A program made the position numbers and the translations under genes. The notes beneath the pieces are model-generated. The model was not told the DNA's origin and made no database searches. It was given only the letters and a program-made list of their open reading frames with translations. Shown piece by piece: positions 13,559 through 34,660 of a stretch of 34,867 bases of DNA; the stretch's first letter is position 1; every line of letters begins with the position of its first letter. The stretch spans positions 1 to 34,867 of the forward strand of contig JAHFDA010000029.1 in the NCBI GenBank assembly GCA_023249225.1. The letters are read 5' to 3'. Origin of the DNA: a bacterium (GTDB lineage: Bacteria > Margulisbacteria > Marinamargulisbacteria > JAHFDA01).

Positions 13559-13610
13559 TCAAAATCTTTCCTGAAACAACCCCCGATTTCCATCGATATA
13601 TTGGCGACCC
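13559..13610 (+). promoter_or_regulatory. 52-bp conserved leader of the variable-protein family, copy 1
   Basis: Begins TCAAAATCTTTCCTGAAAC and ends with GATATATTGGC just before the ATG. The same 52-bp module, always the same length, precedes all four family members (13559, 31168, 33072, 34609), while sequences further upstream are unrelated. It holds a TATATT 8 nt before the ATG, a likely -10, and no Shine-Dalgarno. Confidence 0.7.
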
Positions 13611-14645
13611 ATGTTTTATCGTCTTTCTGCTGGACGCACCGAGCTTGCCACAACTGTTGCCGATTTATTGGCGTTGAATTCCAAATCGCAAGGGTGGATG
13701 GAGGCCCTATTTGCTCGGGACAATTCAGCAAGAAAAATTCTTAGGCGTTTAGAAACCTTATTCACCGTCGCCCGCACGGCCAAGGTGGATGTATTTGCTG
13801 GGGGTCAGGCCTATCAAATCCGTTGGCGATTCTTACTTAAAAAGTTGGACCAAGCCGATCGGGTGCGCTTGCTGACGGATTATATCGGCGCTGACAAGCT
13901 GGATGAGTATGATCCATCTTGTTTGAGTCCAGCAAACGTTACGGAATTTGTGGAATGTATAGACGGAGACGAAGACGGCCAGCCGCTGGGGTGGATTTCG
14001 AATTTTTTGCAAAAGCGTCTCCAGTGGACTCCACTTACTCCGCCCCGCTTGCAAGGCGCGGAGCTACGCGCAGTACTTTCGCAACTCGGCGAAGTGCATG
14101 AAGTTCCATTGGGAAAAAACAAAAATTCCGTGGCGGTGCTGCTCAAGCTGGCAGAGGTAAAGAAGTTTTTAGGCGTTGAGGATCTGGCGGAAGTATTTGC
14201 GGGCGTAGAAGGTTTGCGTCAGGAATCCGGCGAGAAGAACGGATTTATCGCGGACGTCGACCTATACCAGCAACGCGTCCTGCTTGCTGCGATTGTAAAC
14301 GTAGGGGCAATTCATGAATTGCCCCTACATTCGTTGGGTTTTTATAATCTGCGCGGTTCACGCAAGTTATACGAGGTTTTAAGCGCCCAGGGTTTTTACG
14401 AACGGACGGGGATTTATTGGGTATGGACTGGGGAAAAGTACGAAGCGAGTTATGGGAACTCCAATACAAAAGCGGCTGAAGACCAGTATTTAGAACCGGG
14501 CATAGTAACGTTAGAAAATATTGTTAAAATTAGAGGCTCTCGGTTTGTCTTTCGCTTCGTCGGCAATGACTACTGGGGCGTCAACGTTCCTGCAAATCAC
14601 GATGAGAATGGTGGTGTCGTCGTCGGGTTTTTCGAGGACTTATGA
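13611..14645 (+). CDS. Candidate DGR target (variable) protein, family copy 1
   Basis: 344 aa; no family recognised. It is one of four paralogues in the window. The N-terminus MFYRLSAGRTELATTV is followed by a helical region, the shared core (YIGADKLDEYDPSCLSPANV, LGWISNFLQKRLQW, PLGKNKNSVAVLLKLAEVK) and a C-terminal part with GSRKLYEVLSAQGFYERTGI and YWVWTGEK. The last ~35 codons are the variable segment. Two features are private to this copy: an extra ~10 residues near position 35 (FARDNSARKI), and a 28-bp palindrome reading VGAIHELPL that replaces VAKEPRLKDV of the others. The 3' end also differs (GFFEDL instead of GGRxWTP). It is directly followed by an avd-like remnant, the gene order of a DGR locus. 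Function inferred: a ligand-binding protein whose tail is diversified. Confidence 0.8.
   Translation: MFYRLSAGRTELATTVADLLALNSKSQGWMEALFARDNSARKILRRLETLFTVARTAKVDVFAGGQAYQIRWRFLLKKLDQADRVRLLTDYIGADKLDEYDPSCLSPANVTEFVECIDGDEDGQPLGWISNFLQKRLQWTPLTPPRLQGAELRAVLSQLGEVHEVPLGKNKNSVAVLLKLAEVKKFLGVEDLAEVFAGVEGLRQESGEKNGFIADVDLYQQRVLLAAIVNVGAIHELPLHSLGFYNLRGSRKLYEVLSAQGFYERTGIYWVWTGEKYEASYGNSNTKAAEDQYLEPGIVTLENIVKIRGSRFVFRFVGNDYWGVNVPANHDENGGVVVGFFEDL
14290..14335. repeat. Perfect 28-bp palindrome inside copy 1
   Basis: GTAGGGGCAATTCA is followed at once by its exact reverse complement TGAATTGCCCCTAC (centre near 14317). Copies 2 and 3 have ordinary coding sequence at the same place. The palindrome is read in frame as VGAIHELPLH, which I recognise as the translation of a dispersed palindromic repeat seen in many bacterial genomes. 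Confidence 0.8.
14535..14642 (+). other. Candidate DGR variable region of copy 1
   Basis: Aligned codon by codon with copies 2 and 3, this segment (GSRFVFRFVGNDYW... onward) differs at nearly every second codon, mostly at positions 1-2, whereas the preceding ~290 codons are strongly conserved. Fixed anchor residues are F-V-x-R-x-V, W, P and G-G-V. It is the most diverged of the three, including a different final heptapeptide, so it may no longer be active. Confidence 0.6.
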
Positions 14646-14711: not shown

Positions 14712-15028
14712 ATGGTTGAAAATAGCAGACAGCAGACAGCAGACAGCAGACAGCAGACAGCAGACAGCAGACAGCAGACAGCAGACAGCAGACAGCAGAC
14801 AGCAGACAGCAGACAGCAGAAGCATCTCTTTTAAAGATTGAGCTGGGCAAACAAAGCCCTGCGATCATTGCAAAGTATTATGAGTTTTTGAAATGGATCA
14901 TGGGCCGAGTGGCCCGGTTTCCTCGATTGCATCGGTATGTTTTTGGCAAGCAACTCGAAGACAAGGCTTTGTTTATCCTCGATCATCTGGTGTTTGCCTT
15001 GCCTTTAACTTGCAACCATAATCCCTGA
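14712..15028 (+). pseudogene. Truncated, out-of-frame avd-like gene (DGR accessory four-helix-bundle protein)
   Basis: ATG GTT GAA AAT at 14712 leads straight into a 97-bp heptamer tract; this frame stops at 14832. In another frame, 14837-15028 reads IELGKQSPAIIAKYYEFLKW, then IMGRVARFPRLHRYVFGKQL and EDKALFILDHLV. This matches the first two helices of the Avd/bAvd family (pattern P-x-I-x-x-x-Y-D/E-x-x-K-W ... FPR-x-H-R/K-Y/F-x-x-G). Avd is a ~110-130 aa basic barrel-forming protein that binds the DGR reverse transcriptase. Here the homology ends after helix 2 (FALPLTCNHNP then TGA), so the C-terminal half is missing. The position right after a variable-protein gene is the canonical one for avd. 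Family assignment is from memory of the pattern. Confidence 0.65.
14724..14820 (+). repeat. Perfect heptanucleotide tandem repeat, AGCAGAC x 13.9
   Basis: Thirteen complete AGCAGAC units plus six bases, without a mismatch by my reading. It begins four codons after an ATG (14712) and ends just before the avd-like frame. Since seven is not a multiple of three, each unit gained or lost shifts the frame; one more unit would join the ATG to the avd-like frame with no stop between. The tract itself has no stop in any plus-strand frame. Confidence 0.95.
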
Positions 15029-18114: not shown

Positions 18115-18690
18115 ATGATTAACGTTGATCCTAAGGGGGTATACATTTTTTCGACCGACACGGTGTATGGTCTGGGCACTGCTTTAAGCAACGCAGCGGG
18201 CATTGATCGGATTTATGCCCTTAAGGGGCGTGATGCTAAAAAACCGATGGCAGTGCTGGTGGCTTCGCTTGAGCAGGCCGACACGCTGATTGACTGGCCT
18301 ACGCCGCTGTACCGCGAGCCACTTAAAAAGCTCTGGCCTGGGGCGCTGACTATTGTTGTGCCTGCCAAGCCAGAAGTATCGCTCAAAGTACGCGCGGGCT
18401 TTGCAACGCTGGGGCTGCGTTGTCCGGATCATCCGGTTTTGCAGGCCATGTTGCATACCCATGGGCCGTGGGTGGCCACCAGTGTCAACCTGGCAGGACA
18501 GCCGCCTTTAATGGATGAAGACTTGATCCGTTCCAGTTTCCAAAACCAGGTGGATGGTTTTTTGTTTTTTGAACCCAGGCCCAATGGTCAGGCATCCACT
18601 GTGATCGATCTTACGGTGGTGCCACCCAAGGTGCTACGTCCGGGACCGGCCGATATTCGCTTGTTGATGGATGCGGGCAGGATGGGTTAA
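18115..18690 (+). CDS. tsaC: L-threonylcarbamoyladenylate synthase (TsaC/Sua5/YrdC)
   Basis: 191 aa, YrdC fold without the Sua5 C-terminal domain. It makes threonylcarbamoyl-AMP from Thr, bicarbonate and ATP for the t6A modification of ANN-decoding tRNAs. It shows FSTDTVYGLG, the K-x-R...K-P nucleotide-binding motif ALKGRDAKKPMAVL, LWPGALTIVVPA, LGLRCPDHP and VATSVNLAGQPP. The usual C-terminal STVIDLT...VLRPG is present. Translation starts directly after the heptamer tract. Its stop overlaps the stop of the convergent 1732-aa gene by 3 nt. Confidence 0.95.
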   Translation: MINVDPKGVYIFSTDTVYGLGTALSNAAGIDRIYALKGRDAKKPMAVLVASLEQADTLIDWPTPLYREPLKKLWPGALTIVVPAKPEVSLKVRAGFATLGLRCPDHPVLQAMLHTHGPWVATSVNLAGQPPLMDEDLIRSSFQNQVDGFLFFEPRPNGQASTVIDLTVVPPKVLRPGPADIRLLMDAGRMG

Positions 18691-21600
18691 AAATTGACCC
18701 GTCCTCTAAAGACCAAAGCGTCGATGTTGTAGTTATTTTTTGTGTTTTTGCGGTCTCCGACCACCTTTTTGTCCCATTCGCCGGTCACGACAATCGTGCT
18801 GATGACGTTGGATTGTACGGGAATTTGCACATCTATTTTGAGGCTCAAGAGGGCCGAAGTATCGTCGAGATCCTTGATTTCAGTGATCAAAATTTCATTG
18901 GCCGACTGTTTGGTGATCAATTGATCCAAATTATTGATACCCTTGCCGCGGTTGTCGGTTTGCGTAAAGGTCAACGAAATATTGGCGCCTGGAATAAGCT
19001 TGGGGTTATAGGCCGCCTGCAGTACCCCAGTGGCACCCGTGCCTGCCAGGATATCGTTGGCGCGTACCGCTCTTAAGGTGAGGGTGTAGCCCGCCTGAAA
19101 TGAATTAAGCAGGTTGTAGAAGGGGGCTAAAAATATAAAGTTAGCCGGGTACAGGGTGACACCTCCCACCAGGCCGCCGGTGTCAATGACATTGCTTAAA
19201 ACCAGATTGTACGACGAAACCTGGTACTGGCTGGTGCGCAGGTAGTCAAATCCGGCCGAAAGGCCGATAAAGCTAAACGGGCTCATCGAGGCCATGGGCC
19301 GTGAACGCCAGGTTTGTTTGTTGATCACGTTGCTGCGCAAGGCTTGAAGCGTTTGAGAGCCAATGTTGATGGTGGGTTCACTTAACTGTTCTTCTTTGGT
19401 GTAGTTGGCGTTGAGATTCACCAGAAACATTCCCAATGGGCTGAAAGCCATGTTGGATTGATAGGCCTGGGTCTGATTGTAAACGGAGCCCACCACGTCG
19501 ACATAACGGTTGCGGTTGTAATATGCGTCTGAAAAATTTGCTCCGTACATTAAATCTGAAAGCAGCATCCATACGGCGCCCGACAGACCTAGCTCCCGCT
19601 TTTGGCTGTTGTCAAACACATCGGTGGAGTTGACGCTGGGCGTATTTAAGCCAGACAACGCAAGGTTATGGAAATCAGAACGCGTATCAGAATAGGTATA
19701 ACTCAAGGGGAGCATGCCCAGGGGTGAGACATTGCCACCCAGCGTATGGGTTTGTTGCAGCGTATCGGTCAACTTGCGAGTCACAACGCTGCGGTTGTTG
19801 TTTGCGTCGGCCTCGTATTGTTGCTGGTCATCTATCTTGGTGTTATAAGCTTCGGAATATGCCACGTTAAAATCTAAAAGCGTCCACGGCAAGGGCCACA
19901 TCTGCAATCGTCCCAGTTGGAAGCCGGCGCTTTGGTTGCGGCCAAAGGATCGGATTCCAATGGCTTCCACGCTTTGGGTGACCAGGGCACTTTGGGTGCT
20001 GCTGCGATCTTCAAGCCCGGTTGAAAAACTGTACTGGTAACTTAACTTGTTAATCAGTGGCCAATCTGGAAAGGCCAGCGAAAATCCGCTGCCGTATCCG
20101 TTTAGATCAGACCGCGCAATGTTGGTACTGCCCGAGCTGGTTTCGCGCAGTTTCTGACTAAGACTTTTGCTTTGGTTGTACTGCAACGGATTGAGCCGCA
20201 ACAAGGGTATGGGTTGCAGGCCAGTCAGCGAAAATTGCTGGCTTTGATAGTTATAAAGATCAAAGCGGTCGTCCTTGATGTGTTCCCGGTTGTTGTGGCT
20301 GTACTTGAGGTTGACATCTTTGACGGGTGTGGTCAGAAACTGAAATACATTTGAGGAACCCAGGGTTTCTTGTTCGACATAGGCCACCAGCTCGTAAGGT
20401 GTAAACTGTTCGACCTGAAAGTTGCCCTCGGTTTCCACGACTTCGGCCTGGTTGGCCAGCGGACTTAAACTTCCGGCGCGACGGTTGTCGAGGTTCAGGC
20501 GTAAAAAGCGAAACGGTGTGTAGTTAAAGCGGTAATAATTGCTGTTGCTTTGGAGCAAGCCCTGGCGGACACCCGCCGTATTTTTACTTTCATTGGCTTG
20601 GGCGGTGTACTCATACAGGCCGTCCAGCTTGGGTAGCGGTGAGAGCGCGGTCTTGACGCCGTAATTGGTGATGACGGTGTCGCTGTCGGACGACTTGTTG
20701 AGCGCACGTGAAATGCCCACGGTGTAATTGGTCAGCACGTTATTCAAGAACCATACGGTATAAGGGTTATAAACCCCGCTTAAATTAAGCTGGTTGTTGA
20801 CGATTTCACTGCCTGCAAGGCGGTTTTGTTCCCTCGACGTTTTGGCCGCCATGACGGCTCCCAGATCCTTGTCGCCGATTCCAAGGTCTAAGTAATGCGA
20901 GTCGACAAAGGATTCAGCGCTGGGCGTGGTGATGTTGACATCGGTGGCATCGGCAATGCTCGATTGAAAGTTGTACTGATAGCGCAACGTTGTGTTGGGT
21001 ATGGGTGCGGCGCGCAGCACGATATTGCCTTGTTCGGCTTGTGTAAACTGGGGTGAGTCGTCGGTGCGTGTACCGCTTTTACGCCGACGCTGGTCAAAGC
21101 CCAGAGCCACATCGACGCTGGGATTAAATTTGTAAGCCGAGCCGATGGACCATAACGATGAACCCGCCGGTTCAGGCAGGCCGCCCATGGGCGTAAAACT
21201 GTTGCCAATGTTTTGCACCTGGCCGTAGATTTGCAGATCTCCCAGTTGGTAATCGCTGTTCATGCGCCAAGCCAGGTCGGTTTCGTCCTGACCCGCCTGG
21301 GCAAAGGTGCCCGACAAATATTTGTAATTCACCAGAATCTGGTCATTTTTGCTGGGAGTCTGATTTCTAAAACGCAGGGTTCCGTTAAGATAACTGACAA
21401 TATAGTCGTTGTTTTTACTTTGCAGACGGTCGTTGACAAACACTTCTTCGCTGTCTTCGACAATATTTCCCTGCCCCAGGTTATAGACCTCGTTGGCGAC
21501 GCCCGTGCCATTCATGGTGACACGGGTTTCTATTTGCGCTTTAGAAACATTGTTATGGCTGTAAGCCAGTTCACTGCCCACATGCAAGCCGTTATCCAGG

Positions 21601-23885
21601 TAAACCTCGCCATCGACCCCCGCCACCGTATGGCTGATCTGTCCCTGATCCGGGCTTTGTTCGGGTGTAAAATAATATTTAAGGCGTACCTGGTAGCGAT
21701 GATCGACCACATCATGCAGGGCCGAATAAATATGGGCGGCGTCGTAGCGGATAAAGCGTAATTTTGGATTTTGGCCATCGCTGCTGTAGTCAATCTCATA
21801 AGAATAATCACGTTCAAGGCGGGTCCACGAACTAAATTCGCCACCCATGATCAAGACCTCTTCGGAGCGGTATTTCATGGGAAGCTGGGTATACAAGAGA
21901 TCGGTGGCCGTGTAATACGTATCACGTCCATCGGGGTTAAAACGAATTTCAGTTACAAAGCTTTCACGATAACTGTAATTGACCCGCAAATTGCTGCTGG
22001 CGGTGATCGAAGCGGATATGTTGTCTGCCAGTGTGATGATGCCGTGATAGGGATCCAGCGTATAACTGGCGGTGCTGATGGCATTTTTACTCGTTGTGCC
22101 AATGTCTACCACTGAAAAATCTTCGCTCAAAGTAATCGGGTTAAACAATGTCAACAGCAGGTTGTTGGTGAGTGTGGATGCTTCTTCAGTGATGGTTTTG
22201 ACCAACGAATTGTCTTCGGGCCGGGCTGATTCATTTAAGTACGTCATGCCAAAACGCAACGGAGACTGGCCGGCAGTTTGCGGCCGCGCCAAGCCGGTGG
22301 CGCTATCGACCTGCTCGTGCACTTGATAATAGGTGTAAGTCACCTTGATGGCTTTGGGTTTTTGCACCGGCAATTCAAAGAGCAGCTTGCCGTTGTCATA
22401 GTCCATTTTGTAATCGTAGTCTCTAAAGAATATGTCGTTATTGACCTCTACAATTTCGCTGCCACGCACAACCGGTTTAAAGCGCAGGTAATATGGGCCC
22501 TGGCTGTCTTTGGCTTCGATCAGGTCGGTGGTGACGCCGGTTTCGTAATACCGGTAATTGATCCATAAGCTATCTTGCGGATATATTTTAAGATTCGGAA
22601 AAACCACGGTGCCGCTGCGGTACTGGATGAGATAATCGCGGTTGACGCGCAACTTGTGCGTACTTAACCACAGGGTCTCGCTGCCCGGCACCACCGGATA
22701 ATTCTGTAGTTGAAAGGTGCGCGTGGCCGGAATGCTTTCGGCGACAGGGCTGCCAAAAAAAGCCTCGTCAGAGAGCGTTTCATCGGGGGCCATATACAGG
22801 CTACTTTCGATCCACTGCAGTTCTTCATCCATGTCCTGTGGCGGGGGCGTTAACCATTGTCTTTCGCTTTTAAGCGGCAGGTCGATGCGCGTGTGGTAAG
22901 GCAGCATAAAGGGTGTGGACTGTGTGTCTGTGGTGTTGACATGCAGATCCTCTGGCAGGGGGGCAGGCCGAAAGAACTTTGACTGATAGGGGATCAGCTG
23001 GGGGCGAATAAACAGAATCGGTTTGGGTTTGGGCGGCGGTTCAACAAGGATTTCACGGATTTTAGAAAGCACACTGGGTTCATAGCTGATGTTGGGCTTG
23101 TTGGAATATTGTACCCGCGCCAGCGTAAAATTCTTACGTGAGAGTACCGGAATAAAATCAGCTGCCGGGTTGGTGAATTCATACAACACTTTGATCACAT
23201 CGCTGTTGCTTTTGGGTGTCTTAAACTTGATCGTGCCATCGATGTAGTTGATCTCGTACTCGCTGGCGTCAAGGGTCTTGTCGTTGACGATCACTTTCAC
23301 CGAGCCTTCGTAAATATAGGTCTGGCCAATTTTGTAGCTGCTTTCACCGGTGCCGCGGAATTCGGTCTTTTTGGGGTCAGAACGCTGGCGTCCAAAGGCG
23401 GCCTGCACGTCCCACTCGTCGCCATCGTGTTGCAGATATACGCCGTTTAAGGCCTTGCTGGCATTGGCAAAAGAGGTGCCGGCAATGTTGACGTCAAAAT
23501 TAAAAAACTGTAACTGGGTCTTGTCGTGGATCACCTTGATGTCGTACTTGGCCGGAAAGTCCGGTTCCTGCTCGATGTCGTAAATGGCCGACAGCTTTTC
23601 GTCGAGTTTGGCATCGATGCGCAGGCGCAACCGGTGTTCGTAGCGGCCCGGTCCCTCGATCAGGTCGCTGGGGAGCTTTTTGTAGATGGCATCCTGCTCG
23701 ATGACATCGCGATTGCGGTCGGTCGGGTAGGAACGCCGCAGACTGTATTTGCCTTCAAGGTAACCGTCGAAAAGGATCTTGGGAAACTGCGCCGCTTCCA
23801 ACGTAACAGCACCCATCCATGCGATAGCCAAGGCAAGCCCCAGCAGGCAGCGTATGCTTACACGAATTCTATCCACGGCAGTCAT
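18687..23885 (-). CDS. Giant outer-membrane beta-barrel protein with repeated N-terminal beta modules
   Basis: 1732 aa. A signal peptide (LLGLALAIAWMGAVTLEAA, ending near residue 33) leads to an N-terminal half with at least six copies of a degenerate module of the form G-S-E/V-x-V-x-V-N-x-x-x-L ... D/E-Y-x-I-x-Y-x-x-G-T-I-x-F ... I-x-V-x-Y-x-Y. Examples: VIVNDKTLDASEYEINYIDG (about 196), STHKLRVNRDYLIQYRSGTV (about 400), RDYDYKMDYDNGKLLFELPV (about 485) and VFVNDRLQSKNNDYIVSYLN (about 820). The C-terminal ~850 residues are a long run of amphipathic strands rich in Asn/Ser/Tyr/Gln ending in ALVFRGRVNF, a terminal aromatic typical of Bam-assembled barrels. The module pattern recalls the Bacteroidota gliding/secretion protein SprA, but I cannot show homology. 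It is a single-gene minus-strand unit; role unknown. Confidence 0.7.
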   Translation of the reverse strand: MTAVDRIRVSIRCLLGLALAIAWMGAVTLEAAQFPKILFDGYLEGKYSLRRSYPTDRNRDVIEQDAIYKKLPSDLIEGPGRYEHRLRLRIDAKLDEKLSAIYDIEQEPDFPAKYDIKVIHDKTQLQFFNFDVNIAGTSFANASKALNGVYLQHDGDEWDVQAAFGRQRSDPKKTEFRGTGESSYKIGQTYIYEGSVKVIVNDKTLDASEYEINYIDGTIKFKTPKSNSDVIKVLYEFTNPAADFIPVLSRKNFTLARVQYSNKPNISYEPSVLSKIREILVEPPPKPKPILFIRPQLIPYQSKFFRPAPLPEDLHVNTTDTQSTPFMLPYHTRIDLPLKSERQWLTPPPQDMDEELQWIESSLYMAPDETLSDEAFFGSPVAESIPATRTFQLQNYPVVPGSETLWLSTHKLRVNRDYLIQYRSGTVVFPNLKIYPQDSLWINYRYYETGVTTDLIEAKDSQGPYYLRFKPVVRGSEIVEVNNDIFFRDYDYKMDYDNGKLLFELPVQKPKAIKVTYTYYQVHEQVDSATGLARPQTAGQSPLRFGMTYLNESARPEDNSLVKTITEEASTLTNNLLLTLFNPITLSEDFSVVDIGTTSKNAISTASYTLDPYHGIITLADNISASITASSNLRVNYSYRESFVTEIRFNPDGRDTYYTATDLLYTQLPMKYRSEEVLIMGGEFSSWTRLERDYSYEIDYSSDGQNPKLRFIRYDAAHIYSALHDVVDHRYQVRLKYYFTPEQSPDQGQISHTVAGVDGEVYLDNGLHVGSELAYSHNNVSKAQIETRVTMNGTGVANEVYNLGQGNIVEDSEEVFVNDRLQSKNNDYIVSYLNGTLRFRNQTPSKNDQILVNYKYLSGTFAQAGQDETDLAWRMNSDYQLGDLQIYGQVQNIGNSFTPMGGLPEPAGSSLWSIGSAYKFNPSVDVALGFDQRRRKSGTRTDDSPQFTQAEQGNIVLRAAPIPNTTLRYQYNFQSSIADATDVNITTPSAESFVDSHYLDLGIGDKDLGAVMAAKTSREQNRLAGSEIVNNQLNLSGVYNPYTVWFLNNVLTNYTVGISRALNKSSDSDTVITNYGVKTALSPLPKLDGLYEYTAQANESKNTAGVRQGLLQSNSNYYRFNYTPFRFLRLNLDNRRAGSLSPLANQAEVVETEGNFQVEQFTPYELVAYVEQETLGSSNVFQFLTTPVKDVNLKYSHNNREHIKDDRFDLYNYQSQQFSLTGLQPIPLLRLNPLQYNQSKSLSQKLRETSSGSTNIARSDLNGYGSGFSLAFPDWPLINKLSYQYSFSTGLEDRSSTQSALVTQSVEAIGIRSFGRNQSAGFQLGRLQMWPLPWTLLDFNVAYSEAYNTKIDDQQQYEADANNNRSVVTRKLTDTLQQTHTLGGNVSPLGMLPLSYTYSDTRSDFHNLALSGLNTPSVNSTDVFDNSQKRELGLSGAVWMLLSDLMYGANFSDAYYNRNRYVDVVGSVYNQTQAYQSNMAFSPLGMFLVNLNANYTKEEQLSEPTINIGSQTLQALRSNVINKQTWRSRPMASMSPFSFIGLSAGFDYLRTSQYQVSSYNLVLSNVIDTGGLVGGVTLYPANFIFLAPFYNLLNSFQAGYTLTLRAVRANDILAGTGATGVLQAAYNPKLIPGANISLTFTQTDNRGKGINNLDQLITKQSANEILITEIKDLDDTSALLSLKIDVQIPVQSNVISTIVVTGEWDKKVVGDRKNTKNNYNIDALVFRGRVNF

Positions 23886-31167: not shown

Positions 31168-31219
31168 TCAAAATCTTTCCTGAAACACCTCTCGATTCTC
31201 TCCGATATATCGGCAGCCT
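31168..31219 (+). promoter_or_regulatory. 52-bp conserved leader, copy 2
   Basis: Same module as at 13559. It is preceded by a partial duplication (CGTCAAAATCTTCGTCAAAATCTTTCC), so the first ~15 bp are tandemly repeated here. The -10-like element reads TATATC in this copy. Confidence 0.65.
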
Positions 31220-32185
31220 ATGTTTTACCGTTTTTCTGCCCAGCGCGCTGAAATTACCCAAACCGTTCAGGGACTATTGAAACTGAAATCTGATTCCATT
31301 GGCATCGTTCAACGCTTGGAAGCCCTATTCGCCGCCGCTCGCACGGCCAAGGTGGATGTGTTTGCGGGGGACGAGACGTACCACAAACGCTGGCGCAGTT
31401 TGTTAAAGGGCTTGGAGCGGGAAGATCGTGAGCGGCTGCTTACAAATTATATCGGCGCTGACAAGCTGGATGAGTATGATCCATCTTGTTTGAGTCCAGC
31501 AAACGTTACGGAATTTGTGGAATGTGAGGACGGAGACAAAGACGGCCAGCCGCTGGGGTGGATTTCGAATTTTTTGCAAAAGCGTCTCAACTGGGCTCCA
31601 CTTACCCCTCCCCGCTTGCAAGGCGCGGAGCTACGCGCAGTACTTGCCCAACTCGGCGAAGTGCATGAAGTTCCACTGGGAAAAAACAAAAATTCCGTGG
31701 CGGTGCTGCTCAATCTGGCAAAGGTAAAAACGTTTTTGGGCGTTGAGAATCTTGCAGAAGTATTTGCGCGCGTAGAAGGCTTGCGTCAGAAATCCAGGGA
31801 GAAGAACGGATTTATCGTAGACGTCGACCTATATCAGCAACGCGCTCTTTTGGCTGCGATTGTAGCCAAGGAACCACGCTTAAAAGATGTGTTTGGCTTT
31901 TACAATCTGCAAGGTTCACGCAAGTTATACGAGGTTTTAAGCGCCCAGGGTTTTTGCGGACGGACGGGGATTTATTGGGTATGGACGGGAGAAAAACATG
32001 TTCCGGATCAAGCAGAAGATGCTTATCCGGAGCCTGAAATATTAACGTTGGATAGCATTGGTGAAATTAGAGATGGACACTTTGTCTGCCGCTGCGTCGA
32101 CTCTGGCCGCTGGAACGGCAGTCGCCCTGCGGATCGCGTTGACGGTGGGGGCGTTGTGCTTGGTGGTCGGGGTTGGACTCCATAG
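31220..32185 (+). CDS. Candidate DGR target (variable) protein, family copy 2
   Basis: 321 aa. Family member with the shared core; 78 bp (31448-31525) are identical to copy 1 at 13881-13958, silent sites included. Residues ~50-65 differ from the other copies (GDETYHKRWRSLLKGLERED in place of GGQAYQIRWR.LLKKLDQAD), which marks a recombination patch. The C-terminal part has RTGIYWVWTGEKHVPDQAED and the variable tail FVCRCVDSGRWNGSRPADRV, ending GGRGWTP. No signal peptide or membrane segment is seen, so the protein is probably cytoplasmic unless exported by another route. The first ~215 residues look mostly helical; the tail may be a C-type-lectin-like fold (inference). Confidence 0.8.
   Translation: MFYRFSAQRAEITQTVQGLLKLKSDSIGIVQRLEALFAAARTAKVDVFAGDETYHKRWRSLLKGLEREDRERLLTNYIGADKLDEYDPSCLSPANVTEFVECEDGDKDGQPLGWISNFLQKRLNWAPLTPPRLQGAELRAVLAQLGEVHEVPLGKNKNSVAVLLNLAKVKTFLGVENLAEVFARVEGLRQKSREKNGFIVDVDLYQQRALLAAIVAKEPRLKDVFGFYNLQGSRKLYEVLSAQGFCGRTGIYWVWTGEKHVPDQAEDAYPEPEILTLDSIGEIRDGHFVCRCVDSGRWNGSRPADRVDGGGVVLGGRGWTP
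32072..32182 (+). other. Candidate DGR variable region of copy 2
   Basis: Against copy 3, I count 17 amino-acid-changing codons in this stretch. In 14 of them the third base is the same, and in six both first and second bases changed (TGC/GAC, TCT/GGT, CGC/TAC, AAC/TTC, AGT/GTT, GTT/CAT). Nearly all variable codons end in C or T. The segment ends at a shared TGGACTCCATAGCCC, a possible IMH-like anchor. The 200 bp just before it differ mostly at silent sites. Confidence 0.7.
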
Positions 32186-32204
32186 CCCAGGGCAACGCCC
32201 TGGG
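32186..32204. repeat. Hairpin directly after the copy 2 stop codon
   Basis: CCCAGGGC-AAC-GCCCTGGG, an 8-bp perfect stem starting on the base after the stop. It could be a terminator-like or dispersed palindrome (compare 15166-15259), or the cruciform that follows the variable region in several DGRs. Confidence 0.7.
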
Positions 32205-32286
32205 ATCTGTAAGGGCGAAATAAAACCAACCTTAGCTGTCCGGGCAATACTTTAAAATCCACCGTGCGGTAAAATGAGCGTATTAC

Positions 32287-33057
32287 ATGTTGAGCGATGA
32301 TGTTATCAACGAGGTTGTGAATCGGGTCAAACGTGTGGCCAACCCGCAAAAGATTATATTGTTCGGCAGTTATGCCAGGGGGAGGGCAACATCGGAGAGT
32401 GATTTGGATTTGTTGGTCATTAGCGAATCCGAATTGCCACGTTATAAACGGGCGGCACCCATTTACCAGGCTTTGAGCGATATGCTTTATCCCATGGATA
32501 TTTTGGTGTATAGCTCTTCAGAAGTTCATGAATGGAGCCAGGTTCCGCAGGCTTTTGTGACCACGGCCATGCGTGAAGGCAAAGTGTTGTATGAAAAAAA
32601 ACATGATCTGGTGCAGTTATGGCTTCGCAAGGCCGAAAGCGATTTAGCCCGCACTATTCATACCTTCTTGTAGCGGGCTCCCGTGTGTAGGTATCCGCTT
32701 CATATGCATGAATAATCCGGGTTAGAAAACGCCCAAATTTGCCTTGAAGCCGGACGTGTTTTAGATACAGTTTGTTTTCATGCCCAGCAGGCTGCCGAAA
32801 AAGCCATCAAGGGTTTTTTGTGCCACAAAGAAATAGAGTTTCCGCACGTGCATAACCTGGAAAAACTCATTGAATTATGTGCGACCAAAGATCCGGATTT
32901 CCATTCGATCCAGCGCTTGTGCGCAGAACTGACGCCCTATGCCGTCGAACTAAGGTATGACGGCGACTTTTGGCCGGATCTTGCGACGGCGGAACAGGCG
33001 GTTGAGGCAGCGCGTCGAATTAAAGATTTTGTTTCCAGACAGTTGTTGCTCGGATAG
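32287..33057 (+). pseudogene. MNT-HEPN fusion gene interrupted by a 78-bp element
   Basis: The first part (32287-32673) is a minimal nucleotidyltransferase: KIILFGSYARGRATSESDLD has the GS...D-x-D active site (about residues 22-41), with a later Asp in LYPMDILVY. The frame runs on into the HEPN start VQLWLRKAESDL and then hits TAG. After the element the same frame resumes with ENAQICLEAGRVLDTVCFHA, QQAAEKAIKGFL and runs to 33057. Removing 78 bp restores one 230-aa protein. MNT and HEPN proteins normally form antitoxin-toxin pairs as separate genes; here they appear fused. The HEPN R-x4-6-H RNase motif is not evident (ELRYDGDF). The MNT part may still be made alone. Confidence 0.8.
32647..32724. 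mobile_element. 78-bp palindromic element inside the HEPN domain
   Basis: The ends GCCCGCACTATTCATAC and, inverted, ACCCGGATTATTCATGC match at about 13 of 17 positions. A TTA is present on both sides (32644-32646 and 32722-32724), consistent with a target duplication. Precise loss of 78 bp joins GAT TTA to GAA AAC and restores HEPN. A solo end of the same sequence is at 24637-24651. Confidence 0.8.
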
Positions 33058-33071
33058 GCCTTTAATCTTCG

Positions 33072-33123
33072 TCAAAATCTTTCCTGAAACAACCCACGAT
33101 TCCCACCGATATATTGGCAACCC
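33072..33123 (+). promoter_or_regulatory. 52-bp conserved leader, copy 3
   Basis: Same module as at 13559, starting 15 bp after the HEPN stop; TATATT at 33110-33115, 8 nt before the ATG. Confidence 0.65.
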
Positions 33124-34089
33124 ATGTTTTACCGTCTTTCTGCCCAGCGTGCTGAAATTGCCCAAACCGTTCACGGATTATTGGACTCAAATTCTGCTGC
33201 CGGAAATATCGTCGAGCGCTTGGAAACCTTATTTGCCACTGCCCGCGAAGCCAAGGTGGATATATTTGCCGGTGATCAGGCCTATCAAATCCGTTGGCGA
33301 TTCTTACTTAAAAAGTTGGACCAAGCCGATCGGGTGCGCTTGCTGACGGATTATATCGGCGCTGACAAGCTGAATGAGTATGATCCATCTTGTTTGAGTC
33401 CAGCAAACGTTACGGAATTTGTGGAATGTATTGGCGGAGATGAAGACGGCCAGCCGCTGGGGTGGATTTCGAATTTTTTGCAAAAGCGTCTCCAGTGGAC
33501 TCCACTTACCCTGCCCCGCTTGCAAGGCATGGAGCTACGCGCATTACTTGCCCAACTCGGTGAAGTTCACAATGTTCCACTGGGAAAAAACAAAAATTCC
33601 GTGGCGGTGCTGCTCAAGCTGGCAGAGGTAAAAACGTTTTTGGGCGTTGAGAATCTTGTAGAAGTATTTGCGCGCGTAGAAGGTTTGCGACAGGAATCCG
33701 GCGAGAAGAACGGATTTATCATGGACGTCGACCTATACCAGCAGCGCGCTCTTCTGGCTGCGATTGTGGCGAGAGAACCGTGTTTGAAAGACGTGTTTGG
33801 TTTTTACAATCTGCGTGGATCACGCAAGTTATACGAGGTTTTAAGCGCCCAGGGTTTTTACAAGCGGACAGGGATTTATTGGGTATGGACTGGAGAAAAA
33901 CATGTTCCGGATCAGGCAGAAGATGCCTATCCGCAACCTGGAATATTGACGCTAGATAGCATTGGTGAAATTAGAGAGAGCCTCTTTGTCTACCGTGACG
34001 TCGGCGGTGACTACTGGTTCGGCGTTCGCCCTACGGATCGCCATGACCGCGGGGGCGTCGCGTTTGGTGGCCGTGATTGGACTCCATAG
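33124..34089 (+). CDS. Candidate DGR target (variable) protein, family copy 3
   Basis: 321 aa, same length as copy 2. It shares the GDQAYQIRWRFLLKKLDQAD patch with copies 1 and 4 but the C-terminal half with copy 2 (RTGIYWVWTGEKHVPDQAED). The core segment differs from copies 1 and 2 by a single base over 78 bp (D to N). The variable tail reads FVYRDVGGDYWFGVRPTDRH and ends GGRDWTP. No signal peptide or TM segment is seen. Being the same length as copy 2 and uninterrupted, it looks functional. It follows the broken MNT-HEPN gene after 66 bp, most of which is the family leader. Confidence 0.8.
   Translation: MFYRLSAQRAEIAQTVHGLLDSNSAAGNIVERLETLFATAREAKVDIFAGDQAYQIRWRFLLKKLDQADRVRLLTDYIGADKLNEYDPSCLSPANVTEFVECIGGDEDGQPLGWISNFLQKRLQWTPLTLPRLQGMELRALLAQLGEVHNVPLGKNKNSVAVLLKLAEVKTFLGVENLVEVFARVEGLRQESGEKNGFIMDVDLYQQRALLAAIVAREPCLKDVFGFYNLRGSRKLYEVLSAQGFYKRTGIYWVWTGEKHVPDQAEDAYPQPGILTLDSIGEIRESLFVYRDVGGDYWFGVRPTDRHDRGGVAFGGRDWTP
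33976..34086 (+). other. Candidate DGR variable region of copy 3
   Basis: Partner of 32072-32182 in the comparison described there. Fixed residues shared with copy 2 are F-V-x-R-x-V, W, G, R-P-x-D-R-x-D, G-G-V, G-G-R and W-T-P; the residues between vary. After the stop come short inverted repeats TCCGC-CCGT-GCGGA (34103-34116) and GCGC-TTAAG-GCGC (34118-34130). Confidence 0.7.
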
Positions 34090-34608: not shown

Positions 34609-34660
34609 TCAAAATCTTTCCTGAAACAACCCACGATTTCCACCGATATATTGGCAACCC
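34609..34660 (+). promoter_or_regulatory. 52-bp conserved leader, copy 4
   Basis: Same module as at 13559, nearly identical to that of copy 3. Confidence 0.65.

Follow-up and report, generated by a model that had tools for sequence, protein, structure and literature searches.

Scattered genes of a marinamargulisbacterial genome carry a probable adenine-mutagenesis footprint of a diversity-generating retroelement

The window analysed here, a stretch of 34,867 nucleotides forming one contig (JAHFDA010000029.1) of a bacterium of the Marinamargulisbacteria lineage, contains three complete members of one gene family and a fourth member which is cut off by the contig end (Table 1). These genes are named by their first positions (13611, 31220, 33124 and 34661), and family members elsewhere by their contigs. 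Between 31220 and 33124, there is a nucleotidyltransferase-like ORF (32287-32673), and after it comes a HEPN-like sequence with no obvious start (~32700-33058). A similar pair is found near the targets on contig C12 (L032:2011-2755), and all of these were identified by reading only. AGCAGAC tandem repeats (14727-14822) are located a short distance 3' of the 13611 gene. The minus strand at 18687-23885 encodes a 1732-aa protein, for which a match to DUF2460 is short and barely above the cut-off.

Table 1. Family members, variable regions and associated elements in the window
Feature	Position	Strand	Basis
Sigma28-like motif before 13611 gene	13572..13600	+	Pattern search
Third target gene, class F tail, 344 aa, end GFFEDL	13611..14645	+	Domain profile match
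Variable region of 13611 gene	14538..14609	+	Codon comparison with C14
Sigma28-like motif TGAAA-N16-YCGATAWA, 10 bases before ATG of 31220 gene	31181..31209	+	Pattern search
DGR-type target gene, class R tail, 321 aa	31220..32185	+	ORF and domain profile match
Variable region of 31220 gene	32072..32173	+	Codon alignment with C1, C12a, C6 and 33124 tails
Hypervariable core of 31220 gene	~32087-32146	+	Same five-tail codon alignment (31220, 33124, C1, C12a, C6)
8-bp G+C-rich inverted repeat, 3-nt loop (CCCAGGGC-AAC-GCCCTGGG)	32186..32204	+	Directly 3' of 31220 stop codon
Sigma28-like motif before 33124 gene	33085..33113	+	Pattern search
DGR-type target gene, class R tail, 321 aa	33124..34089	+	ORF and domain profile match
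Variable region of 33124 gene	33976..34077	+	Codon alignment
Hypervariable core of 33124 gene	~33991-34050	+	Codon alignment
Sigma28-like motif before cut-off fourth gene (34661)	34622..34650	+	Pattern search
Fourth family member, 5' start only, cut by contig end	34661..34867	+	DNA search

The assembly (GCA_023249225.1) comprises 2.83 Mb in 121 contigs and is 97% complete by estimate (~3% missing). Some stretches of the genomes searched read N. A DNA search, followed by a search with a profile of the ~165-residue C-terminal domain, revealed 15 genes with this domain in the genome, all with E<=2e-16. Three of them lie in full within the window (contig C113), two are on C12 (C12a and C12b), and ten further contigs (C1, C6, C14, C36, C86, C94, C100, C105, C111 and C121) have one each. 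Their bodies form two deeply split subfamilies, MFYRL/MHLFQ proteins and short MINMLF proteins (tree support 100/100). Defined by their last residues, 13 of the 15 tails fall into three comparable classes: class R (GGRDWTP; 31220, 33124, C1, C12a and C6), class F (GFFEDL; 13611 and C14) and class L (GLPD or GLSD; C12b, C100, C36, C105, C86 and C94). C111 and C121 have similar tails and no partner for comparison. Since family members are situated at or near the ends of several contigs (C113, C14, C94 and C1), the assembly seems to be prone to breaking at such repeats. The palindrome GTAGGGGCAATTCATGAATTGCCCCTAC, a MITE-like insertion inside coding sequence, lies in frame within the target domain (window 14300-14340), where it encodes VNVGAIHELPLH. 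It is also present in C12a, C6, C94 and C14 and missing from 31220, 33124 and C1.

The family had been taken as undescribed in a sequence-only reading of this DNA, and this is borne out: neither Pfam, PHROG and NCBIfam nor the PDB contain a sequence match. Searches of 84,980 named genomes and of viral contigs, phages and plasmids detected no relatives of the domain. Among 74 genomes of the phylum, a set which includes no other genome of this organism's family or order, the only other one with the domain is G034, which has two copies (G034:C81:200-1033 and G034:C52:4553-5167). The single reverse transcriptase match of G034 (468 aa) is only 25% identical to Brt of Bordetella phage BPP-1 and is probably not an enzyme of a diversity-generating retroelement (DGR). 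The target family is lineage-restricted and has a putative common promoter.

The codon pattern of the tails points to mutagenesis directed at adenines. Upstream of the tail, 31220 and 33124 differ 38, 21 and 68 times at codon positions 1, 2 and 3, and in the last ~34 codons the pattern is reversed (10, 12 and 7 differences). This agrees with the earlier description of ~285 codons that are alike with mostly silent changes, then an abrupt switch at AGA GAT/GAG. A recount by eye also gave the same 17 replaced residues, of which 14 keep the third base and six have both first and second bases changed. The list of fixed codons proposed at that time stands in part; however, the 'D' (GAT, ATT, TTT or CAT) and the 'R' (CGC, CAC, CTC or CCG) of RP-D-R vary in other copies, as expected from a template reading AAT CAC.

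In a template copy with adenine-only errors, adenine is not expected at any position that stays constant. Not one of the 83 invariant tail columns is an adenine: the 47 columns of class R (five tails) comprise 21 G, 14 C and 12 T, and the 36 of class L (six tails) 14 T, 13 G and 9 C. In the gene bodies, invariant columns at codon positions 1 and 2 contain 28-34% A; given this content, the absence of A from the 48 invariant position-1/2 tail columns has p ~3e-8. The tails were selected as variable, whereas the invariant columns were not selected by base. In the hypervariable columns, which were chosen by the authors, 142 of 143 codons are NNY. Across the paralogues, the changes are those expected from errors at adenines of a putative template, as the sequence-only reading had anticipated, and the further paralogues clearly do not change equally at third positions, which it had named as evidence to the contrary.

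The tail classes differ in how well third bases are preserved. In pairwise comparison, tails of class L show differences at 48% of first, 45% of second and 14% of third codon positions. In class R, 9-25% of third bases differ between tails, and these tails may therefore be older writes or products of slightly different templates. For 13611 and C14, third bases differ by 23% in the body and 3% in the tail, where 32% of second bases differ; for C12b and C105, the values at third bases are 21% in the body and 3% in the tail.

The clearest case is C94, which combines a body of the R/F type (body tree support 100/100) with a tail of class L. It was compared with C86, which has a body of the short (MINMLF) subfamily. 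The bodies differ at fractions of 0.58, 0.40 and 0.68 of positions 1, 2 and 3, with third bases saturated, and the tails at 0.24, 0.31 and 0.03. None of the third bases of the last 29 codons is changed, against ~15 changes at positions 1 and 2, so that silent sites are shared across diverged bodies. The stretch TAGACTCAATTCAGTT after the stop codon is also common to both genes, and in class L generally the conserved 3' segment extends beyond the stop. The pattern is best explained by copying from a putative shared template with adenine-specific errors, and in C94 nature may have recorded how one template class was written onto a gene body that had diverged deeply. Replacement of a segment, with changes limited to the first two codon positions, argues for mutagenic retrohoming, as selection or gene conversion would not give both.

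Structures were predicted from family alignments for the 33124 protein (pLDDT 85) and the 213-aa C12b protein (pLDDT 81). The best PDB fold matches of both models are C-type-lectin folds, among them bitiscetin, mannose receptor CRD-4, PvdO and Treponema TvpA (PDB 2y3c), with E values of 0.02-0.2 that are not significant alone. A search of a viral fold library gave no match to the models. For the C-terminal domain the predictions are suggestive only of a C-type-lectin-like fold. TvpA of Treponema denticola, among the top matches of both models, is a DGR variable protein with this fold; to the family described here it shows no detectable sequence similarity but only the fold match (E 0.08-0.19).

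In the target genes whose upstream DNA was read, the motif TGAAA-N16-YCGATAWA lies either 4-11 or ~31-39 bases before the ATG. An exception is C105, where it is absent from the 90 bases upstream. Family members account for over half of the 24 occurrences in the genome, and the reversed pattern has none. The sigma28 promoter reads TAAA-N15-GCCGATAA, which the motif resembles. A FliA/WhiG-like factor, scoring below the curated cut-off, is encoded on contig C21 and adjoins a flgI-like gene (flgI by reading of the protein), and flagella-linked co-expression of the targets is possible. The motif was also observed less than 12 bases before unrelated ORFs on C33, C53, C60, C70, C79, C80, C92 and C109, several of which start like M..(F/Y/L).(K/R/Q).(L/V)A. 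The motif-bearing genes could possibly make up one regulon, with near-leaderless mRNAs and a shared N-terminal motif. At the other end of the genes, the inverted repeat behind 31220 is a possible homing hairpin and is not common to the other targets: a hairpin shared by all is not supported, and hairpins of >=8 bp were found after the stop in two targets only.

Taken together, ~100 bases at the 3' end of each gene (the last ~35 codons) are exchanged as one block, the body is conserved next to the variable 3' end, and bodies from both of the deeply diverged subfamilies have received the same 3' segment. The adenine-mutagenesis footprint of a DGR, proposed from the sequence of the window, is thus strongly supported by all paralogues, by invariant columns without adenine, by the chimeric tail of C94 and by the C-type-lectin-like predicted fold. 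We are highly confident that the tails are variable regions written by a DGR. That the three complete window genes and at least ten elsewhere, hence at least 13 scattered genes, are remote DGR targets is very probable as well. By analogy with the mechanism established for DGRs, template RNAs with AAY codons would be copied by a reverse transcriptase that makes errors at adenines, and the resulting cDNAs would take the place of the target genes' 3' ends. This would imply at least three and probably four templates, for class R, class F and class L with its GLPD and GLSD variants. Each protein would present its variable residues as the binding surface of a C-terminal C-type-lectin-like domain joined to differing N-terminal parts. 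Expressed together from sigma28-like promoters, the targets might provide the cell with a repertoire of binding specificities.

Searches with RVT_1 and with BPP-1 Brt detected no DGR reverse transcriptase in the assembly. A weak Brt match lies within the gene for valyl-tRNA synthetase and is due to chance. As a positive control, the same RVT_1 search was run on phylum-mates. Seven of them (G031, G037, G045, G048, G057, G058 and G067) contain DGR-type reverse transcriptases with lengths of 281-374 aa, which are 29-40% identical to Brt and mostly have adenine-mismatched repeats alongside; a normal DGR enzyme would therefore have shown up here if it had been assembled. Nor was a template repeat found in the assembly with a guessed template as DNA query and with a degenerate pattern allowing <=3 mismatches, which was written to cover all inferred templates. 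Besides the target genes, these searches gave only chance matches of 14-15 bases, and viral contigs contained no template either. At this point, membership of a complete DGR fails, because reverse transcriptase and template were not found in the incomplete assembly. The sequence-only reading had stated that the genome 'has or had' a DGR and that the lack of both components would count against it. The lack holds so far, in an incomplete genome; 'has' finds no support in the assembly, and either may still hold. The machinery may be unassembled, located on a separate replicon or lost after recent activity.

One version of the DGR reading holds that an ancestral DGR was active and that reverse transcriptase and templates were then lost, so that the tails now drift as fixed variants. 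This is a serious candidate to which we give somewhat less than an even chance. It is consistent with the result of the searches in a 97%-complete assembly, with the third-base changes accumulated in class R tails and with variable genes whose DGR components are missing or replaced, as described for cyanobacteria (all3226, PMC7517822) and Thiohalocapsa (PMC10907252). However, the tails of C94/C86, C12b/C105 and 13611/C14 have only 0-1 third-base changes in 29-31 codons, so at least some writes appear recent relative to body divergence. A further version, which we regard as rather doubtful, is a DGR-like system with several templates that acts in trans on at least 13 lectin-like genes, dispersed but under one regulon, and whose reverse transcriptase either sits on another replicon or is so divergent that RVT_1 misses it. 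If true, a chromosomal repertoire would be diversified by machinery located elsewhere.

Explanations without a DGR fare far worse. Strong positive selection on a binding surface, with tails spread by duplication and gene conversion, fits genes that are paralogues with conserved flanks, and gene conversion alone could put the tail onto C94. It is very improbable nonetheless: selection does not purge invariant columns of adenine, would not limit changes to NNY codons and fails to account for third bases untouched in C94/C86 beside so many changes at the other two positions. Equally improbable is shuffling of pre-made tails by a site-specific recombinase or by recombination with silent tail copies. 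The tail replacement in C94 resembles such a cassette event, but gene, guessed-template and profile searches yielded whole genes or fragments only and no silent cassettes, all tails are unique whereas shuffling gives repeats, and the missing invariant adenine is left unexplained. Finally, the sole RVT_1 match of the genome (C12:6584-7105; L032, minus strand), although only ~270 bases from target C12b, has practically no chance of being the machinery, being a 174-aa truncated remnant of a group II intron reverse transcriptase/maturase that aligns to positions 222-352 of the group II model TIGR04416, lacks the polymerase front and had no template found nearby.

Mutagenic retrohoming has been established for Bordetella phage BPP-1 (PMC3240598). 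The Mtd/Brt system of this phage shares with the family a variable region at the 3' end and adenine-specific changes in AAY-derived codons. However, in BPP-1 template, Avd and Brt are located next to the target, whereas the targets described here have no such neighbours, and the assembly search gave no relative of Brt. A likeness is also seen in the remote variable proteins of cyanobacteria (Vallota-Eastman et al. 2020, PMC7517822; Trichodesmium, PMC8867640), with many dispersed paralogues far from any reverse transcriptase, varied N-terminal parts, a C-terminal C-type-lectin domain (predicted in our case) and a variable region at the 3' end. In these cyanobacteria, reverse transcriptase and template are present in the same genome, whereas neither was found in the assembly studied here, and the domain of our family matches no library family searched. 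The DGR loci of Thiohalocapsa PB-PSB1 (Dore et al. 2024, PMC10907252) are similar in that a single bacterium has several template classes and that N-termini are modular, and also in their MITE-like repeats and in the loss of the reverse transcriptase or template from some loci. They differ in that nine loci have DGR reverse transcriptases and in their NACHT or ternary conflict-system targets; no NACHT or conflict-system N-terminal domain was recognised in our family.

Surveys starting from the reverse transcriptase miss remote repertoires, a limit stated in PMC8144416. Our results show that targets alone suffice to recognise a DGR repertoire, through invariant columns free of adenine, and that enzyme and template are not needed for this. 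The family also provides a putatively co-regulated set of candidates for studying the use that bacteria make of cellular DGRs. As remote targets and the loss of components have both been described (PMC7517822, PMC10907252), the kind of system is already known; new are the family of targets, how many of them occur with no machinery in sight, and the chimeric tail.
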